Shown one piece after another: positions 47,130 through 53,947 of a DNA stretch of 64,000 nt. Each line of letters opens with the position of its first letter. The first letter of the stretch is position 1. The notes below the pieces were generated by a model. It saw nothing but the letters and a program-made list of their open reading frames with translations. It did not search any database and was not told where the DNA came from. This DNA is from a bacterium (GTDB taxonomy: Bacteria; Vulcanimicrobiota; Vulcanimicrobiia; Vulcanimicrobiales; Vulcanimicrobiaceae): assembly GCA_021778415.1 (NCBI GenBank), contig JAJYCL010000013.1, positions 1 through 64,000 of the forward strand. The letters are read 5' to 3'. Both the position numbers and the translations under genes were made by a program.

Positions 47130-48284
47130 ATGCCAGTCTACGTCAGGGCCGGCCAGCTTCCGCCAAAACGCCACATCCAATTTCGTAACGGCGCCGGTAC
47201 GCTCTACAGCGAAGAATTACTTTCGACCAAGGGCTTCGAATCGGTCTACTCGCTGCTGTATCACGAGCATCCACCGACGGCTATTTCCGATGTGCGTCCG
47301 TGGAAGCGTTCGTCATACGCACTGGTACCCAACGAGCCGTTGCGCAACCGACATTTTTTCACGACGCGCGCACCCCACGGCAGCGATGCCATCGACGCTC
47401 GCGTCCCAATGCTCGGCAACGACGACATCCTCATCTCTATCGCCGAGTTCACCGATGCGATGGACTATTTCTATCGCAACGTCGGTGGTGATGAGTTACT
47501 CTTCGTCCACTCCGGATCGGGAACGTTACAAACGCCGTTCGGCAATCTCGATTACCGCCCGCACGATTATCTCATCATTCCATCGGGGACGACCTATCGT
47601 GTCGTGCCCGCCGAGCAAACACGAATGCTCGTCCATGAATGTCGTGGCATGGTCAAAGTACCGCGAAAATACCGTAACGAATTCGGTCAGTTGGAAGAAC
47701 ACGCTCCGTATTACGAACGCGATTTTCGAGCCCCGGTGTTGCAGGCCCCGATAACCGAGCGCGGAGCCTTTGAAATTCGCGTCGCGCATTCCGGGCGAAA
47801 TGCCATTCACATCGCGCAATTCCATCCGTGCGATGTCGTCGGCTGGGATGGCTATTGTTATCCCTACGCCTTTAATGTCGATGATTTTGCGCCCATTGTC
47901 GGGCAACTGCACCAGCCGCCGCCCGTCCACGCAACGTTCGAATCGCCCGGCGCGGCGTTTTGCGCGTTTGTTCCGCGGCTCTTCGATTTTCATCCGCTTG
48001 CGGTGCCGATTCCCTATAATCATGCCTCCGTCGATTGCGACGAAGTCCTTTATTACGTGAGCGGTAATTTCATGAGCCGTCGCGGCATACTTGAAGGATC
48101 GATCACCTTACATGCCGCCGGGGCAACGCACGGTCCTCAACCCGGTGCCATCGAATCGTCGCTTGATAAAAACTCAACCGACGAACTCGCCGTGATGGTC
48201 GATACGTTTGCTCCGCTACTCATTGCCCAGCCGGCCATCGCCTGCGAAGATGAGGCGTATTTCCGTTCGTGGATGGTGCCTTAA
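47130..48284 (+). CDS. hmgA: Homogentisate 1,2-dioxygenase
   Basis: Opens homogentisate to maleylacetoacetate with O2 at a mononuclear Fe(II) site. The 384-aa cupin-type protein is somewhat shorter than the animal form (about 445). DYFYRNVGGDELLFVHSGSG lies near residue 120, PYNHASVDCDEVLYYVSG carries the His/Glu iron ligands (about 296-313) and a third His is in GATHGPQPG near 332. It overlaps the convergent fumarylacetoacetase stop within TTAA. Confidence 0.93.
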   Translation: MPVYVRAGQLPPKRHIQFRNGAGTLYSEELLSTKGFESVYSLLYHEHPPTAISDVRPWKRSSYALVPNEPLRNRHFFTTRAPHGSDAIDARVPMLGNDDILISIAEFTDAMDYFYRNVGGDELLFVHSGSGTLQTPFGNLDYRPHDYLIIPSGTTYRVVPAEQTRMLVHECRGMVKVPRKYRNEFGQLEEHAPYYERDFRAPVLQAPITERGAFEIRVAHSGRNAIHIAQFHPCDVVGWDGYCYPYAFNVDDFAPIVGQLHQPPPVHATFESPGAAFCAFVPRLFDFHPLAVPIPYNHASVDCDEVLYYVSGNFMSRRGILEGSITLHAAGATHGPQPGAIESSLDKNSTDELAVMVDTFAPLLIAQPAIACEDEAYFRSWMVP

Positions 48285-49561
48285 CACGCGTCGCTAGGAA
48301 GTATTTCTCCCGTAGCGGAGCCGAATCCGATAGTTCGTTCACCCGATTTGCGACATGTTCCGGCGATGGTAATACGATCGCCGTCTTGCAGAAAGCTGCG
48401 TGTCTGCCCATCGGGTAGCGATAGCGGGCGCGTTCCATTCCAGCTTAATTCAATGAAACTGCCCAGAGAATCCGGCGTCGTTCCGCTGATCGTTCCCGAG
48501 GCAAAAAGATCCCCGGGCTCGGCAATTGCGCCATTTGCCGTCGCATGGGCCAATTGCTGAGCGAGATTCCAATACATCATCCCGTAATTCGTCCGCGATA
48601 CAACGTGAGGCGCCAGACCGCGGGCGCGCATTGCTTCGGATTGGATGGCAACGTCCAAAGCGATATCATAACTCCACGAATCATCGCAGGCGAGATACGC
48701 GAGTGGGGCGGGATCTTGTACCGGGCCACGCATGCGGAACGGTTCGAGCGCATCGAGCGTGACGATCCATGGGGAAATGGTTGTCGCAAACGATTTGCCT
48801 AAAAACGGCCCAAGCGGTTGATATTCCCATGCTTGGATATCACGCGCAGACCAGTCGTTGACCAACACCAAACCGAAGACGTGATCGCGCGCTGCGCCCG
48901 TCGGGATTCGTTGCCCCAATGCATTTGCCGGCCCGGTAAGAAAACCGATTTCAAGTTCGATATCCAAGCGTGCCGAGGGGCCAAACGTGGGCTCGGAAGC
49001 AGTTGGCAGTTTTCGTTGGCCGCATGGTCGACGAATCGGCGTCCCGTCAATGACGACGGTGGCGCTGCGTCCGTGATAGCCGATGGGCATCCAACGCCAA
49101 TTCGGCATCAGCGGATCGCCATCGGGGCGAAACAGTTTGCCAAGATTCGTCGCATGTTCGAGCGATGAGTAAAAATCGACATAATCGCCGATCTGAGTCG
49201 GCAAACGCATCGACACCTCACGCTGCACGACGAACATCGCGTGGTCATTAAGATCTCTTAACGCGGAATCGCCGTTCGTTTTCAATAGCTCGATAAGACG
49301 AGAGCGTAGGCCCGACCATACGCCGCGCCCGGCCGCTAAGAGCGGATTGAGCACGGGTGCATTGAGGATTTCACGTTCACAGACACCGTCGAGTAGACCG
49401 GCATTCGCGAGCGCCGCAAGATTGAGAATGCGATCGCCGATGGCTACGCCGATGGTATCGAGTCCGCCATCCGAAAAGACGCCGAAGGGAAGATTTTGGA
49501 TCGGAAAATGCGATTCCGGTAGGACCGGTAGCCAAGATTCTTCTTGCGATATGCTACTCAC
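48281..49561 (-). CDS. fahA: Fumarylacetoacetase
   Basis: Cuts fumarylacetoacetate to fumarate and acetoacetate, the last step of tyrosine breakdown. In the 426-aa protein the small N-terminal domain is followed by the catalytic beta roll with DYVDFYSSLEHATN (about residues 127-140), PIGYHGRSATVV, ELEIGFLTGP, LVNDWSARDIQAWEYQPLGPFLGKSF and SGTISG. Metal and active-site residues are in place. The GTG start at 49559-49561 overlaps the unknown gene's stop (GTGA), so the two are translationally coupled. It converges on hmgA. Confidence 0.95.
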   Translation of the reverse strand: MSSISQEESWLPVLPESHFPIQNLPFGVFSDGGLDTIGVAIGDRILNLAALANAGLLDGVCEREILNAPVLNPLLAAGRGVWSGLRSRLIELLKTNGDSALRDLNDHAMFVVQREVSMRLPTQIGDYVDFYSSLEHATNLGKLFRPDGDPLMPNWRWMPIGYHGRSATVVIDGTPIRRPCGQRKLPTASEPTFGPSARLDIELEIGFLTGPANALGQRIPTGAARDHVFGLVLVNDWSARDIQAWEYQPLGPFLGKSFATTISPWIVTLDALEPFRMRGPVQDPAPLAYLACDDSWSYDIALDVAIQSEAMRARGLAPHVVSRTNYGMMYWNLAQQLAHATANGAIAEPGDLFASGTISGTTPDSLGSFIELSWNGTRPLSLPDGQTRSFLQDGDRITIAGTCRKSGERTIGFGSATGEILPSDAC

Positions 49562-50427
49562 GCGGATTCCACCATTCCAAGAGTTTGAAGATCAGTGAGC
49601 GGTTCGCGGAAACTGCAGCTTCCGTACGATGTAAACGCCCCGGAGCGAACGTCCCGTAGTTCGCTCTGGGAAATCGTTTCCGTAGAAAACCGCAGGGTAT
49701 GGCCGTCGTAGGCAAAGGCCGATGCATCCTGAGATTCGAGGATTGAAATGATCGATTCCATTCGTCCTCCGCGACGGGCCAGCGTTGCGCCGACGAGCAT
49801 GTTGAGAAATCCGTGCATCGTGGCGCCATTATGCTCATCGCGAACGCCGCAAATGGGGTGATGCAATCCGGCCGTGGCCTTAAAGGCGATCCCTACTCGG
49901 GCAACTTCGACGAGAAATCGCGCCAGTTGCTCGCTCGACGGATAGGCCGTCGCCACCATCCCACCGCATCGCACCTTAGCCCCAAGACCGGCAGCATGGA
50001 CGCGATCCAAGCATTCCGGGAGCGACTCATCAAGACGCACCTCGCAGAATATCGGCATCGCGCCGATGTTGGAGCGTTCCGCGAGCGTCGCCAATCGCTC
50101 CGGGGAAATCGAGCATGATACCGGGATTTCGAAGGCCTCGACGTTCACGGAATCGCCGAGCGACGCAACCCGGGCAAAGGCGGCGGCAAACGCCGCTTCA
50201 TCATCGAGCCCGTCGAGAATCAGGCTTACGGGAAATCGTTGGGTGCCCTTGGCGGCGCAGAAAGCGCGCAGGGATGAGAGCGGGAGGATGAAGCGACCCA
50301 GCATCCAGGCCTGAGGCAACGTACGAAGCGCGGCATATTCTGCAATGGCAGGCTCCATGGCGAGCGTCGCAGGCGGAAACAGCCCGGCGTAGTCGATAAG
50401 TTGGGAGAACGCAACGGATTCATGCAT
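49558..50427 (-). CDS. Unknown protein coupled to fumarylacetoacetase
   Basis: A 289-aa protein from the ATG at 50425-50427; the longer frame would run into the HPPD upstream region. I do not recognise a named family. The pattern is alpha/beta: LIDYAGLFPPATLAMEPAI, RFPVSLILDGL, SVNVEAFEIPVS, GAMPIFCEVRLD, LGAKVRCGGMVATAYP, VGIAFKATAGLHHPI. The repeated strand-helix order and GIAFKATAGLHHPI recall a TIM barrel, with Lys and two His at a strand end. The GTGA overlap with fumarylacetoacetase and the absence of a maleylacetoacetate isomerase make a role in that pathway likely. Confidence 0.7.
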   Translation of the reverse strand: MHESVAFSQLIDYAGLFPPATLAMEPAIAEYAALRTLPQAWMLGRFILPLSSLRAFCAAKGTQRFPVSLILDGLDDEAAFAAAFARVASLGDSVNVEAFEIPVSCSISPERLATLAERSNIGAMPIFCEVRLDESLPECLDRVHAAGLGAKVRCGGMVATAYPSSEQLARFLVEVARVGIAFKATAGLHHPICGVRDEHNGATMHGFLNMLVGATLARRGGRMESIISILESQDASAFAYDGHTLRFSTETISQSELRDVRSGAFTSYGSCSFREPLTDLQTLGMVESA

Positions 50428-50495
50428 AACGAATGCGCGGCCGTTTCGCACGGTTGGACAGGGAGGCCTTCGAGGCGACGCCAATCCCGGACTTT

Positions 50496-51611
50496 ATGAC
50501 GACAGCTGCCACTCCTGCGCCTACTGCGCTTACAACGATCGATTGGGACTACGTAGAGTTCTACGTGGGCAATGCTCAACAAGCTGCCCATTTCTATTGC
50601 ACTGCATTTGGCTTCGACCAAATTGCCTATGCCGGCCCCGAGACCGGAGTGGCTGGACGCGTCAGCTATTTGCTCGAGCAAAACAAACTTCGCTTTCTCA
50701 TCACCGCGTCGTTGCTTCCGGACGATGACATCGCCCGCCACGTTGCCCTGCATGGCGATGGCGTCAAAGATATTGCCATCCTTGTCGACGACGCGAAGGC
50801 TGCCTGGGAACAAGCGACGCGCGCCGGCGCACAATCCGTCCGAGCTCCAAAAACCGACCACGATGCTCACGGCACCATCGTTCGAGCGTCGATCGCCACC
50901 TATGGCGATACGATTCATACCTTTGTGCAACGGTCCGATTACAACGGCGTGTTCGCACCCGGCTTCGTTGAAGCGCGCAAATCCTATCCGAACGCAAAAA
51001 AGACGGGTCTGCAATTTATCGACCACTGCGTCGGCAACGTCGGTTGGGGACAAATGGATGAGTGGGGCGAGTTTTATGCCAAGGTCTTTGGATTCTCGCA
51101 GCTGATTTCGTTCGATGATAAAGATATCTCGACGGAATTCACGGCGCTCAAATCCAAGGTGATGAGCGATCCGCTACATCGCGTTAAATTTCCGATCAAC
51201 GAACCGGCCGAAGGAAAGAAAAAATCGCAAATCGAGGAGTTCCTCGATTTCTATCATGGTGCCGGCGTACAACACATCGCAATTCGTACCGACGATATTG
51301 TCGCCACGATCCGCGCGCTAGCAGCAAACGGCGTCGAGTTTCTCAATACTCCCGATTCGTATTACGAGATGCTTCCCGAGCGCGTAGGCGCCATCGATGA
51401 AGATATTGCCATTCTCCGCGAGCTGCGGATTCTCGTTGATCGCGACGATCTCGGGTACATGCTGCAGATTTTCACAAAACCGCTGCAAGACCGGCCAACG
51501 GTCTTTTTTGAAATTATCCAGCGCAAAGGTAGCCTCTCCTTCGGAAAAGGCAATTTCAAGGCGCTCTTTGTCTCGATCGAACGAGAACAGGAAAAGCGCG
51601 GTACACTCTAA
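50496..51611 (+). CDS. hppD: 4-Hydroxyphenylpyruvate dioxygenase
   Basis: Converts 4-hydroxyphenylpyruvate to homogentisate with Fe(II) and O2. The 371-aa protein has two vicinal-oxygen-chelate halves. The iron ligands are H177 (QFIDHCVGN), H260 (AGVQHIAIRT) and E339 (TVFFEIIQRKG). The C-terminal helix GKGNFKALFVSIEREQ is present. The ATG at 50496 is chosen; an upstream in-frame start adds 21 residues with no family match. It is divergent from the unknown gene by 68 bases and leads a six-gene plus-strand unit. Confidence 0.96.
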   Translation: MTTAATPAPTALTTIDWDYVEFYVGNAQQAAHFYCTAFGFDQIAYAGPETGVAGRVSYLLEQNKLRFLITASLLPDDDIARHVALHGDGVKDIAILVDDAKAAWEQATRAGAQSVRAPKTDHDAHGTIVRASIATYGDTIHTFVQRSDYNGVFAPGFVEARKSYPNAKKTGLQFIDHCVGNVGWGQMDEWGEFYAKVFGFSQLISFDDKDISTEFTALKSKVMSDPLHRVKFPINEPAEGKKKSQIEEFLDFYHGAGVQHIAIRTDDIVATIRALAANGVEFLNTPDSYYEMLPERVGAIDEDIAILRELRILVDRDDLGYMLQIFTKPLQDRPTVFFEIIQRKGSLSFGKGNFKALFVSIEREQEKRGTL

Positions 51612-51637: not shown

Positions 51638-52498
51638 GTGATGCTCGAAGCTCGAGCAACCGCATTGGCCTCGCGGTCTATAAAAACCACGACAAAGCGC
51701 GTTGGCATCGATCTCGCCATAGCGTGCGTCGATCTGACGACACTTGAGGGCCGCGACAGCGCAGGTCGCGTGCGTTCCCTCTGCATTCGCGCCATGCATC
51801 CGGATCCAAGCGACGCGACAGTTCCACACGTCGGCGCGGTGTGCGTCTATCCGAATCTCGTCGCCGTTGCCCGCGAAACGCTCGGCACGAGTGCCGTGCA
51901 TCTCGCATCCGTCGCGACGGCATTTCCAAGTGGACAAGCCGAGATGAGCGTCAAGCTCGCCGATACCGAACAAGCGTTAGCGGCCGGTGCGGATGAAATC
52001 GATATGGTGATCGATCGCGGCGCATTTCTTGAAGGCAACGATCGCAAAGTCGCTACCGAAATCGAAGCGATAAAAGAGCTGTGCCATGGGCGCGCCCACC
52101 TGAAAGTCATCCTTGAAACCGGCGAATTGGGAAGTTACGAAAACATCCGCCGTGCCAGCGATCTTGCATTGCACGCCGGTGCCGATACGATTAAAACCTC
52201 GACGGGAAAAATCGGTACGAACGCCACCTTGCCGACCGCCCTGCTCATGTGCGAAGCCATTCGCGATTTTGCCGATCGTACGGGCGAACTCCGTGGCTTA
52301 AAAGTTGCCGGCGGTGTGCGCACCACAAAACAAGCTCTCGCCTATTTGGTCGTTGTCAACGAGACACTCGGGGCCGATTGGCTCACGCCGGATCGATTCC
52401 GGATTGGCGCGTCATCGTTGCTCGACGATCTGCTCATGCAACGTCAAAAAGAGCGCTCCGGCCGCTATGCCGGAAACGACTACATCTCGAAAGATTAA
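51638..52498 (+). CDS. deoC: Deoxyribose-phosphate aldolase
   Basis: Splits 2-deoxyribose-5-phosphate to glyceraldehyde-3-phosphate and acetaldehyde. The 286-aa protein has D123 (EIDMVID), the Schiff-base Lys at K186 in DTIKTSTGK and K222 in LKVAGGVRT, at the usual spacing. The start is GTG 51638 or ATG 51641. The stop is directly followed by the aldehyde dehydrogenase ATG (TAAATG), so the pair may channel acetaldehyde to acetate (inference). Confidence 0.95.
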   Translation: MMLEARATALASRSIKTTTKRVGIDLAIACVDLTTLEGRDSAGRVRSLCIRAMHPDPSDATVPHVGAVCVYPNLVAVARETLGTSAVHLASVATAFPSGQAEMSVKLADTEQALAAGADEIDMVIDRGAFLEGNDRKVATEIEAIKELCHGRAHLKVILETGELGSYENIRRASDLALHAGADTIKTSTGKIGTNATLPTALLMCEAIRDFADRTGELRGLKVAGGVRTTKQALAYLVVVNETLGADWLTPDRFRIGASSLLDDLLMQRQKERSGRYAGNDYISKD

Positions 52499-53947
52499 AT
52501 GACCGTGGCCCTTGCATTCGATTACGCGCCCGCTCCTGAAACGACTCGCCCGCACATTCGCGACGAATACGGACTTTTTATCGATGGTCGTTGGACGCGC
52601 GCGCACAATAATCGACAGTTCGCAACCGTAAATCCCGCGACGGAAGAGTTTCTCGCATCGGTCGCCTACGCATCGGAGCTGGATGTCGATGCAGCGGTAA
52701 AGGCAGCACGCAAAGGGTACGAAAAATACTGGAGCAAACTCACGCCGGCTGCGCGCGCGAAATATCTGTACCGCATCGCGCGTTCGATCACCGAAAAAGG
52801 CCGCGAACTTGCCGTCTTGGAGACCATGGACGGCGGCAAGCCGATTAGAGAGTCGCGCGATTTCGATATCCCGACCGCTGCTGCGCACTTCTTCTATTAC
52901 GCCGGGTGGGCCGATAAATTACGGTACGCATCGCGCAACGGTGCGGACGCGCTCCCCCTCGGCGCCTGCGGGCAAATTGTGCCATGGAATTTTCCGCTGC
53001 TTATGGCCGCGTGGAAACTTGCACCGGCACTTGCCTGCGGCAATACCGTCGTCCTAAAACCCGCCGAGACGACCTCGCTTACGGCACTTGCTCTAGCCGA
53101 TATCATTGCGCAAGCCGATTTACCCCCCGGCGTTGTCAATATAGTTACCGGGCCCGGTGAAACCGGACGAGCCCTCGTTTCACATCCAGACATCGATAAA
53201 ATAGCGTTTACCGGATCGACGGAAGTCGGCAAACAGATCATGCGTAGCGTCGCGGGACGAGATATTCGTCTGACGCTTGAACTCGGCGGAAAAGCGGCCC
53301 ACATCGTCTTTGCCGATGCTCCGTTGGACCAAGCCATCGAAGGCATCATTTCGGGGATCTATTTCAATCAGGGCCACGTTTGTTGTGCCGGTTCACGATT
53401 GCTTGTTGAGGAATCCATTCACGACGAGGTCGTTGCCCGACTCCTTCGGCGTCTCCAAACGATGCGACTTGGCGATCCTCTCGATAAAAACACCGATATC
53501 GGAGCGATCAATTCCGCCGAACAGCTTGCGCGCATTCAAGAACTTGTAGCTAGCGGCGTTGCGCAAGGCGCGCAATTGCATAGCCAGCCGTTTTCGGCCC
53601 CGGATCGCGGATATTGGTTCCCTGCATCCTTTTTCACCGGTGTGACACAATCGCACCGTATCGCGCAAGAAGAGATCTTTGGTCCGGTGCTTTCTATTCT
53701 CACTTTTCGCACCCCCGATGAAGCACTGTCGAAAGCAAACAATACACCGTACGGTCTCTCGGCCGGCGTTTGGACGAGCAGCGGCAGCAAAAACATGTGG
53801 ATCGCCGAACATCTCCGCGCGGGCGTTGTATGGTGCAACACCTATAATCGCTTCGATCCGGCCTCGCCGTTTGGCGGCTATCGGGAATCGGGATTCGGGC
53901 GCGAAGGGGGTGTCCACGGACTTCGGGAGTATCTACAACACGCATGA
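52499..53947 (+). CDS. NAD(P)-dependent aldehyde dehydrogenase
   Basis: A 482-aa ALDH superfamily enzyme oxidising an aldehyde to the acid. PWNFP (N164), FTGSTEVGK (about residues 237-245), general base E261 in LELGGK and the catalytic Cys C295 in GHVCCAGSR are present. EEIFGPVL follows near residue 385. The ATG abuts the deoC stop, and the end overlaps the GGDEF gene by four bases (ATGA). Acetaldehyde from deoC is a plausible substrate. Confidence 0.93.
   Translation: MTVALAFDYAPAPETTRPHIRDEYGLFIDGRWTRAHNNRQFATVNPATEEFLASVAYASELDVDAAVKAARKGYEKYWSKLTPAARAKYLYRIARSITEKGRELAVLETMDGGKPIRESRDFDIPTAAAHFFYYAGWADKLRYASRNGADALPLGACGQIVPWNFPLLMAAWKLAPALACGNTVVLKPAETTSLTALALADIIAQADLPPGVVNIVTGPGETGRALVSHPDIDKIAFTGSTEVGKQIMRSVAGRDIRLTLELGGKAAHIVFADAPLDQAIEGIISGIYFNQGHVCCAGSRLLVEESIHDEVVARLLRRLQTMRLGDPLDKNTDIGAINSAEQLARIQELVASGVAQGAQLHSQPFSAPDRGYWFPASFFTGVTQSHRIAQEEIFGPVLSILTFRTPDEALSKANNTPYGLSAGVWTSSGSKNMWIAEHLRAGVVWCNTYNRFDPASPFGGYRESGFGREGGVHGLREYLQHA

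Follow-up and report, generated by a model that had tools for sequence, protein, structure and literature searches.

Introduction

Textbooks describe the homogentisate pathway with a glutathione-dependent isomerase. This isomerase, MaiA/GST-zeta (TIGR01262), has a GST fold and uses glutathione. Its gene sits next to fahA or the homogentisate 1,2-dioxygenase (HGD) gene in catabolic clusters. A glutathione-free cis-trans isomerase is known for a related ring-cleavage product. It is the mycothiol-dependent maleylpyruvate isomerase (DinB/MDMPI-like), a thiol-dependent enzyme with a DinB-like helical structure. Maleate cis-trans isomerase, a member of the Asp/Glu racemase superfamily, works by cysteine addition-elimination without a cofactor.

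The homogentisate pathway also operates in many bacteria that lack glutathione. We analyzed a gene, here called U, which lies beside the fumarylacetoacetase (FAH) gene in one such cluster. We consider it likely that U is a glutathione-independent maleylacetoacetate cis-trans isomerase, co-translated with fumarylacetoacetase, and a non-homologous replacement of MaiA/GST-zeta. U resembles MaiA in its inferred reaction and in its position, whereas it is a 289-aa TIM barrel for which no homology to MaiA was found. It also differs from the mycothiol-dependent enzyme, being a barrel that is unmatched in Pfam. The fold and family of maleate cis-trans isomerase differ from those of U as well, and its cysteine chemistry is the role that we propose for C271 of U.

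The homogentisate cluster in the window

The window was a stretch of 64,000 nucleotides (contig JAJYCL010000013.1, positions 1 to 64,000). The features of its tyrosine/homogentisate cluster are listed in Table 1. The FAH matched the solved FAH structures 1hyo/1qqj at about 1e-128. The HGD aligned to human HGD (1ey2) at 3e-11 and gave only a partial match to TIGR01015 (61 bits, under the 511 cut-off). It is a divergent short form of ~384 aa, and the same form was present in U clusters of Bacillota and Cyanobacteriota. The curated NCBIfam hmgA model would miss it.

Table 1. Genes of the homogentisate cluster in the window and candidate active-site codons of U
Feature	Position	Strand	Remarks
hgd, short-form homogentisate 1,2-dioxygenase	47130..48284	+	Pfam HgmA_N over cut-off; stop overlaps fahA stop by 4 bases (convergent)
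fahA, fumarylacetoacetase	48281..49561	-	GTG start; TIGR01266 517 bits against a cut-off of 375 (NCBIfam scan)
U, candidate glutathione-independent maleylacetoacetate isomerase, 289 aa, DERA-like TIM barrel	49558..50427	-	ORF; ATG start set by homologues
hppD, 4-hydroxyphenylpyruvate dioxygenase	50433..51611	+	Divergent from U; TIGR01263 452 bits against a cut-off of 277 (NCBIfam scan)
K151 codon of U	49975..49977	-	End of barrel strand 6, DERA K167 position; arithmetic from ATG 50427
K183 codon of U	49879..49881	-	Barrel strand 7, in KATAGLHHP, DERA K201 position; coordinate by arithmetic
C271 codon of U	49615..49617	-	GSCS motif, end of strand 8, candidate nucleophile; coordinate by arithmetic

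The ORF of U was listed from a TTG (49558-50484, minus strand), and its homologues supported the ATG at 50427, giving 289 aa. The initial annotation had described an overlap of this ORF with the fahA start by GTGA. The junction, read directly as ...GCGTGAGTAGC, contains these four bases, in which the TGA that ends U overlaps the GTG that starts fahA. The true start of hppD is probably downstream of 50433, near 50496, judging from the sequence.

HGD and fumarylacetoacetase had been noted in the window without a glutathione-type isomerase. This was confirmed at the level of the window's own genome (95.6% complete), in which no match to maiA (TIGR01262) was found. Glutathione synthetase did not pass its cut-off in this genome either (best match 17.9 bits vs 23).

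After hppD, on the same strand, are deoC and an aldehyde dehydrogenase gene (51638-53947). The deoC gene stays close to the U cluster in several Eremiobacterota (e.g. loci L025-L030, L032, and L135).

U belongs to a widespread family

The U sequence had no match in Pfam, NCBIfam, or the PDB sequences, either singly or as a 76-member family. Relatives of U were encoded in at least 569 genome stretches from about 12 phyla. These were Eremiobacterota, Acidobacteriota, Gemmatimonadota, Bacillota, Actinomycetota, Cyanobacteriota, Planctomycetota, Verrucomicrobiota, Chloroflexota, Bacteroidota, Armatimonadota, and Krumholzibacteriota. Conservation over so many loci ruled out a chance ORF.

In an alignment of 76 sequences, the invariant residues of U were A14, G15, P19, E100, E129, K151, R153, K183, T185-H190, G206, R261, G269-S272, and P276. 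DYAGLFPPA, KATAGLHHP, and GSCS are the signature motifs. Further copies from Actinomycetota and Bacillota plasmids kept most of the invariant residues, with H190 and R261 altered in some.

U was also considered as a GST-type MaiA. This candidate was rejected: TIGR01262 was unmatched by U or the U family in the NCBIfam scan, and the modeled fold is a TIM barrel, not GST.

No account of the U family was found in the open-access PMC literature, and an earlier report elsewhere is possible. The main text of a catabolic gap-filling study (PMC9007349) mentions neither homogentisate nor maleylacetoacetate. The pathway step is already known, whereas the enzyme family appears to be new, a probable non-homologous replacement enzyme.

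U occurs with fahA and without maiA

The initial annotation had proposed a search for co-occurrence of U with fahA and absence of maiA. In three separate samples, U was found almost wholly within fahA-positive genomes. Among 60 relatives, 33 had U, and 32 of these had fahA; in the remaining one (G040), U is a contig-end fragment. In 198 Bacteroidota genomes, fahA was present in 75 and U in 30, and all 30 U genomes were fahA-positive. For 246 Actinomycetota, the numbers were 32 and 14, respectively, with fahA in 13 of the 14 U genomes; the exception is again a contig-end fragment. The hypergeometric p values were 3e-15 for Bacteroidota, 3e-12 for Actinomycetota, and 1e-10 for the relatives, which are optimistic values as shared ancestry was ignored.

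No maiA over cut-off was detected in the 60 relatives, in 50 U-bearing genomes from many phyla, or in the 198 Bacteroidota (0 of 308 genomes in total). A maiA homologue elsewhere in the genome, combined with loss of U in relatives, had been named beforehand as the pattern that would speak against a role of U in this step. The observed pattern was the opposite, with maiA absent here and U kept in more than half of the relatives. The cyanobacteria among the 50 U-bearing genomes showed weaker GST matches, none of which passed the maiA cut-off. Cyanobacteria make glutathione, and the presence of U in them weakens the isomerase reading.

This reading is also weakened by fahA-positive genomes that contain neither U nor maiA. 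They made up 45 of the 75 fahA-positive Bacteroidota and five of the relatives (G007, G014, G018, G022, and G028). Thus, U is not the sole answer to an absent maiA, and other routes exist. These genomes must have a third kind of isomerase, use a thiol route, or hydrolyze the cis substrate directly, or else fahA has another purpose in them. The genes beside fahA in U-less genomes (loci L146-L165) were scanned, and they included flavin reductase, CoA transferase, Crp-like regulator, nuclease, and HbpS-like genes. Nothing recurrent and no U remnant were seen among them.

U is coupled to fahA in compact modules

In 70 of the best 80 U loci, covering about 12 phyla, fahA was the next gene after U and had the same orientation; the median gap was 54 bases. 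Among the other ten, three loci end too early to be informative, fahA is more distant in two, and it is absent from five despite sufficient room. None of the loci read contained U fused to FAH or HGD.

The near-constant adjacency and the translational overlap in the window would also suit a partner or activator that lets FAH hydrolyze maleylacetoacetate directly, so that isomerization is skipped. The genomes with fahA and neither U nor maiA suggest that FAH sometimes works without a known isomerase, in agreement with such a partner. However, the barrel of U looks like that of an enzyme and contains many conserved polar residues, and U lies apart from fahA in some genomes (G013, G020, and the Nostoc loci), which is unusual for an obligate subunit. 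We regard a partner role as unlikely. The initial annotation had offered both possibilities for U, a glutathione-independent isomerase and an aid to direct FAH action on maleylacetoacetate. The former stands as the best reading, and the latter is retained as a lesser rival, with the genomes lacking both genes as a reservation.

Plasmids carried the shortest versions of the cluster. In a plasmid collection, fahA was present in 119 records and U in 24, where it was annotated as "hypothetical protein". The U records were from Actinomycetota, Bacillota, and one cyanobacterium; no U from Pseudomonadota plasmids appeared in the organism tally. In Rhodococcus, plasmid-borne U forms the minimal module HGD-U-fahA. 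The same module on a Pseudonocardia plasmid (L169) is flanked by transposase genes, which suggests that it may move as one unit. A Streptomyces plasmid has the order HGD-U-fahA-CoA transferase A-B, and a Priestia plasmid has hppD-U-fahA-hisC-HGD.

In four of six Pseudomonadota plasmid clusters (Acinetobacter, Sphingobium, Sulfitobacter, and Rhizobium), an annotated maiA was beside or near fahA. The Paracoccus and Acidovorax clusters had neither maiA nor U near fahA. By this contrast, which was drawn from plasmids only, U fills the slot next to fahA that is often held by maiA in Pseudomonadota.

The minimal modules, and the exchange of U and maiA at the position beside fahA, indicate a role in the main step of the pathway. 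They argue against another explanation, in which U uses Schiff-base chemistry to clear or repair a harmful by-product, e.g. succinylacetone-like or decarboxylated diketones, and low-molecular-weight thiols or another enzyme carry out the isomerization. A class I aldolase-like architecture would suit diketones, and U is missing from some fahA-positive genomes, both of which agree with a repair role. A glutathione-dependent nonenzymatic bypass in MaiA-deficient mice also favors it (Fernandez-Canon 2002, as cited in PMC10970868). Yet a repair enzyme would be expected alongside maiA, and the two genes occurred together in no searched genome. We find a repair function improbable.

On a Streptomyces plasmid, a protein annotated with a "maleylpyruvate isomerase N-terminal domain" is encoded two genes upstream of U (L167, 4361-5017), so U and a thiol-dependent isomerase-like protein can occur together.

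The predicted structure of U resembles DERA

The 3D structure of U was modeled using AlphaFold2 on the 76-member alignment (pLDDT 94.6, pTM 0.92). The model is a TIM barrel, which bears out the earlier remark that the protein looked TIM-barrel-like. Its top solved folds were deoxyribose-phosphate aldolases (DERA/DeoC, TIGR00126), with a VIA Z of 14.2 (1n7k/1mzh), 207 aligned residues, and an rmsd of 3.4. Among the fold matches listed, the first 43 rows were DERA or DERA-derived designs. The next family was ALAD, with a Z of 11.7.

In the model, strands 1, 4, and 5 carry D12, E100, and E129, respectively. Strand 6 (residues 149-152) carries K151, strand 7 (residues 182-184) carries K183, and C271 is located just after strand 8. 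The corresponding places in E. coli DERA are occupied by D16, D102, K167, K201, and S238/S239. Their residue numbering was checked on the sequence. Both proteins would therefore share a lysine pair on strands 6 and 7, along with acidic residues on strands 1 and 4. U has GSCSFxEP where DERA has the phosphate-binding GASS motif after strand 8, as placed by strand order only. As there was no profile similarity to DeoC, this mapping as a whole follows strand order in the model. C271 was invariant in the 76 sequences and was kept in eight additional homologues, which came from plasmids and from one relative.

Sequence or profile similarity to DERA was absent; U has its own signature motifs, and a separate true deoC is present in the window. 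As modeled, the likeness of U to DERA is one of fold and active-site layout, not of family membership. U as a DeoC paralogue by sequence was rejected, with TIGR00126/PF01791 unmatched and an hhalign probability of 0.7% against the DeoC profile.

The aldolase fold, together with deoC two genes away in the window, could mean that U acts elsewhere in tyrosine/phenylacetate breakdown, as an aldolase, a tautomerase, or a downstream acetoacetate enzyme, and that the neighborhood reflects co-regulation only. This is very improbable, as HGD-U-fahA is kept in modules without hppD or deoC and no profile links U to DeoC.

ALAD is a Schiff-base lysine enzyme of a different pathway, and no sequence similarity between it and U was found. 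The title of PDB entry 1h7r describes ALAD with succinylacetone as a Schiff base. Succinylacetone is a beta-diketone close to maleylacetoacetate, so a diketone closely related to the substrate can form a Schiff base with a barrel lysine.

Proposed mechanism of U

Several observations support U as the isomerase: its adjacency to and co-occurrence with fahA, the minimal modules, the slot exchanged with maiA, the absence of maiA, the own genome without a glutathione synthetase match over the cut-off, the DERA-like fold, and the 1h7r precedent. U would convert maleylacetoacetate from HGD into fumarylacetoacetate for FAH without glutathione. It would probably do so with Schiff-base assistance, which we hold with less confidence than isomerization itself. 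The C4 ketone, which is conjugated to the cis double bond, would react with K151 or K183 to give a Schiff base. In this iminium, C2 would be open to reversible addition, for which the C271 thiol is the most likely nucleophile. The bond, now single, could then rotate, the nucleophile would leave, and the imine would be hydrolyzed. R153, H189, and H190 may hold carboxylates or transfer protons. The addition-rotation-elimination logic would be the same as that of MaiA with glutathione, here built into the protein. The full proposal is tentative, namely that this family, found in about 12 phyla and also on plasmids, consists of cofactor-free maleylacetoacetate isomerases in which a class I aldolase-type barrel supports catalysis by a lysine Schiff base (iminium).

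If true, the isomerase step of tyrosine breakdown would have been solved twice by unrelated proteins, and U would bring new chemistry for enzymatic cis-trans isomerization and a new isomerase mechanism to study. The family appears to fill the isomerase gap in Acidobacteriota, Gemmatimonadota, Bacillota, Actinomycetota, Eremiobacterota, Cyanobacteriota, and others. A name for it would let many genome annotations and metabolic models include the step that they now lack.

Divergent U copies in Bacteroidota

Six of the 30 Bacteroidota U copies were divergent (L171-L176; genomes G155, G186, G236, G248, G252, and G300). These flavobacterial copies kept K151 and K183 and lacked R153, H189/H190, and the GSCS motif with C271, and fahA was not adjacent to them. 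The loss of H189, H190, and GSCS weakens the isomerase reading, and the function of these U-like copies may have changed. They share their neighborhood, a radical SAM HemN-like gene and an HU-type DNA-binding gene, with the canonical U of related genomes.
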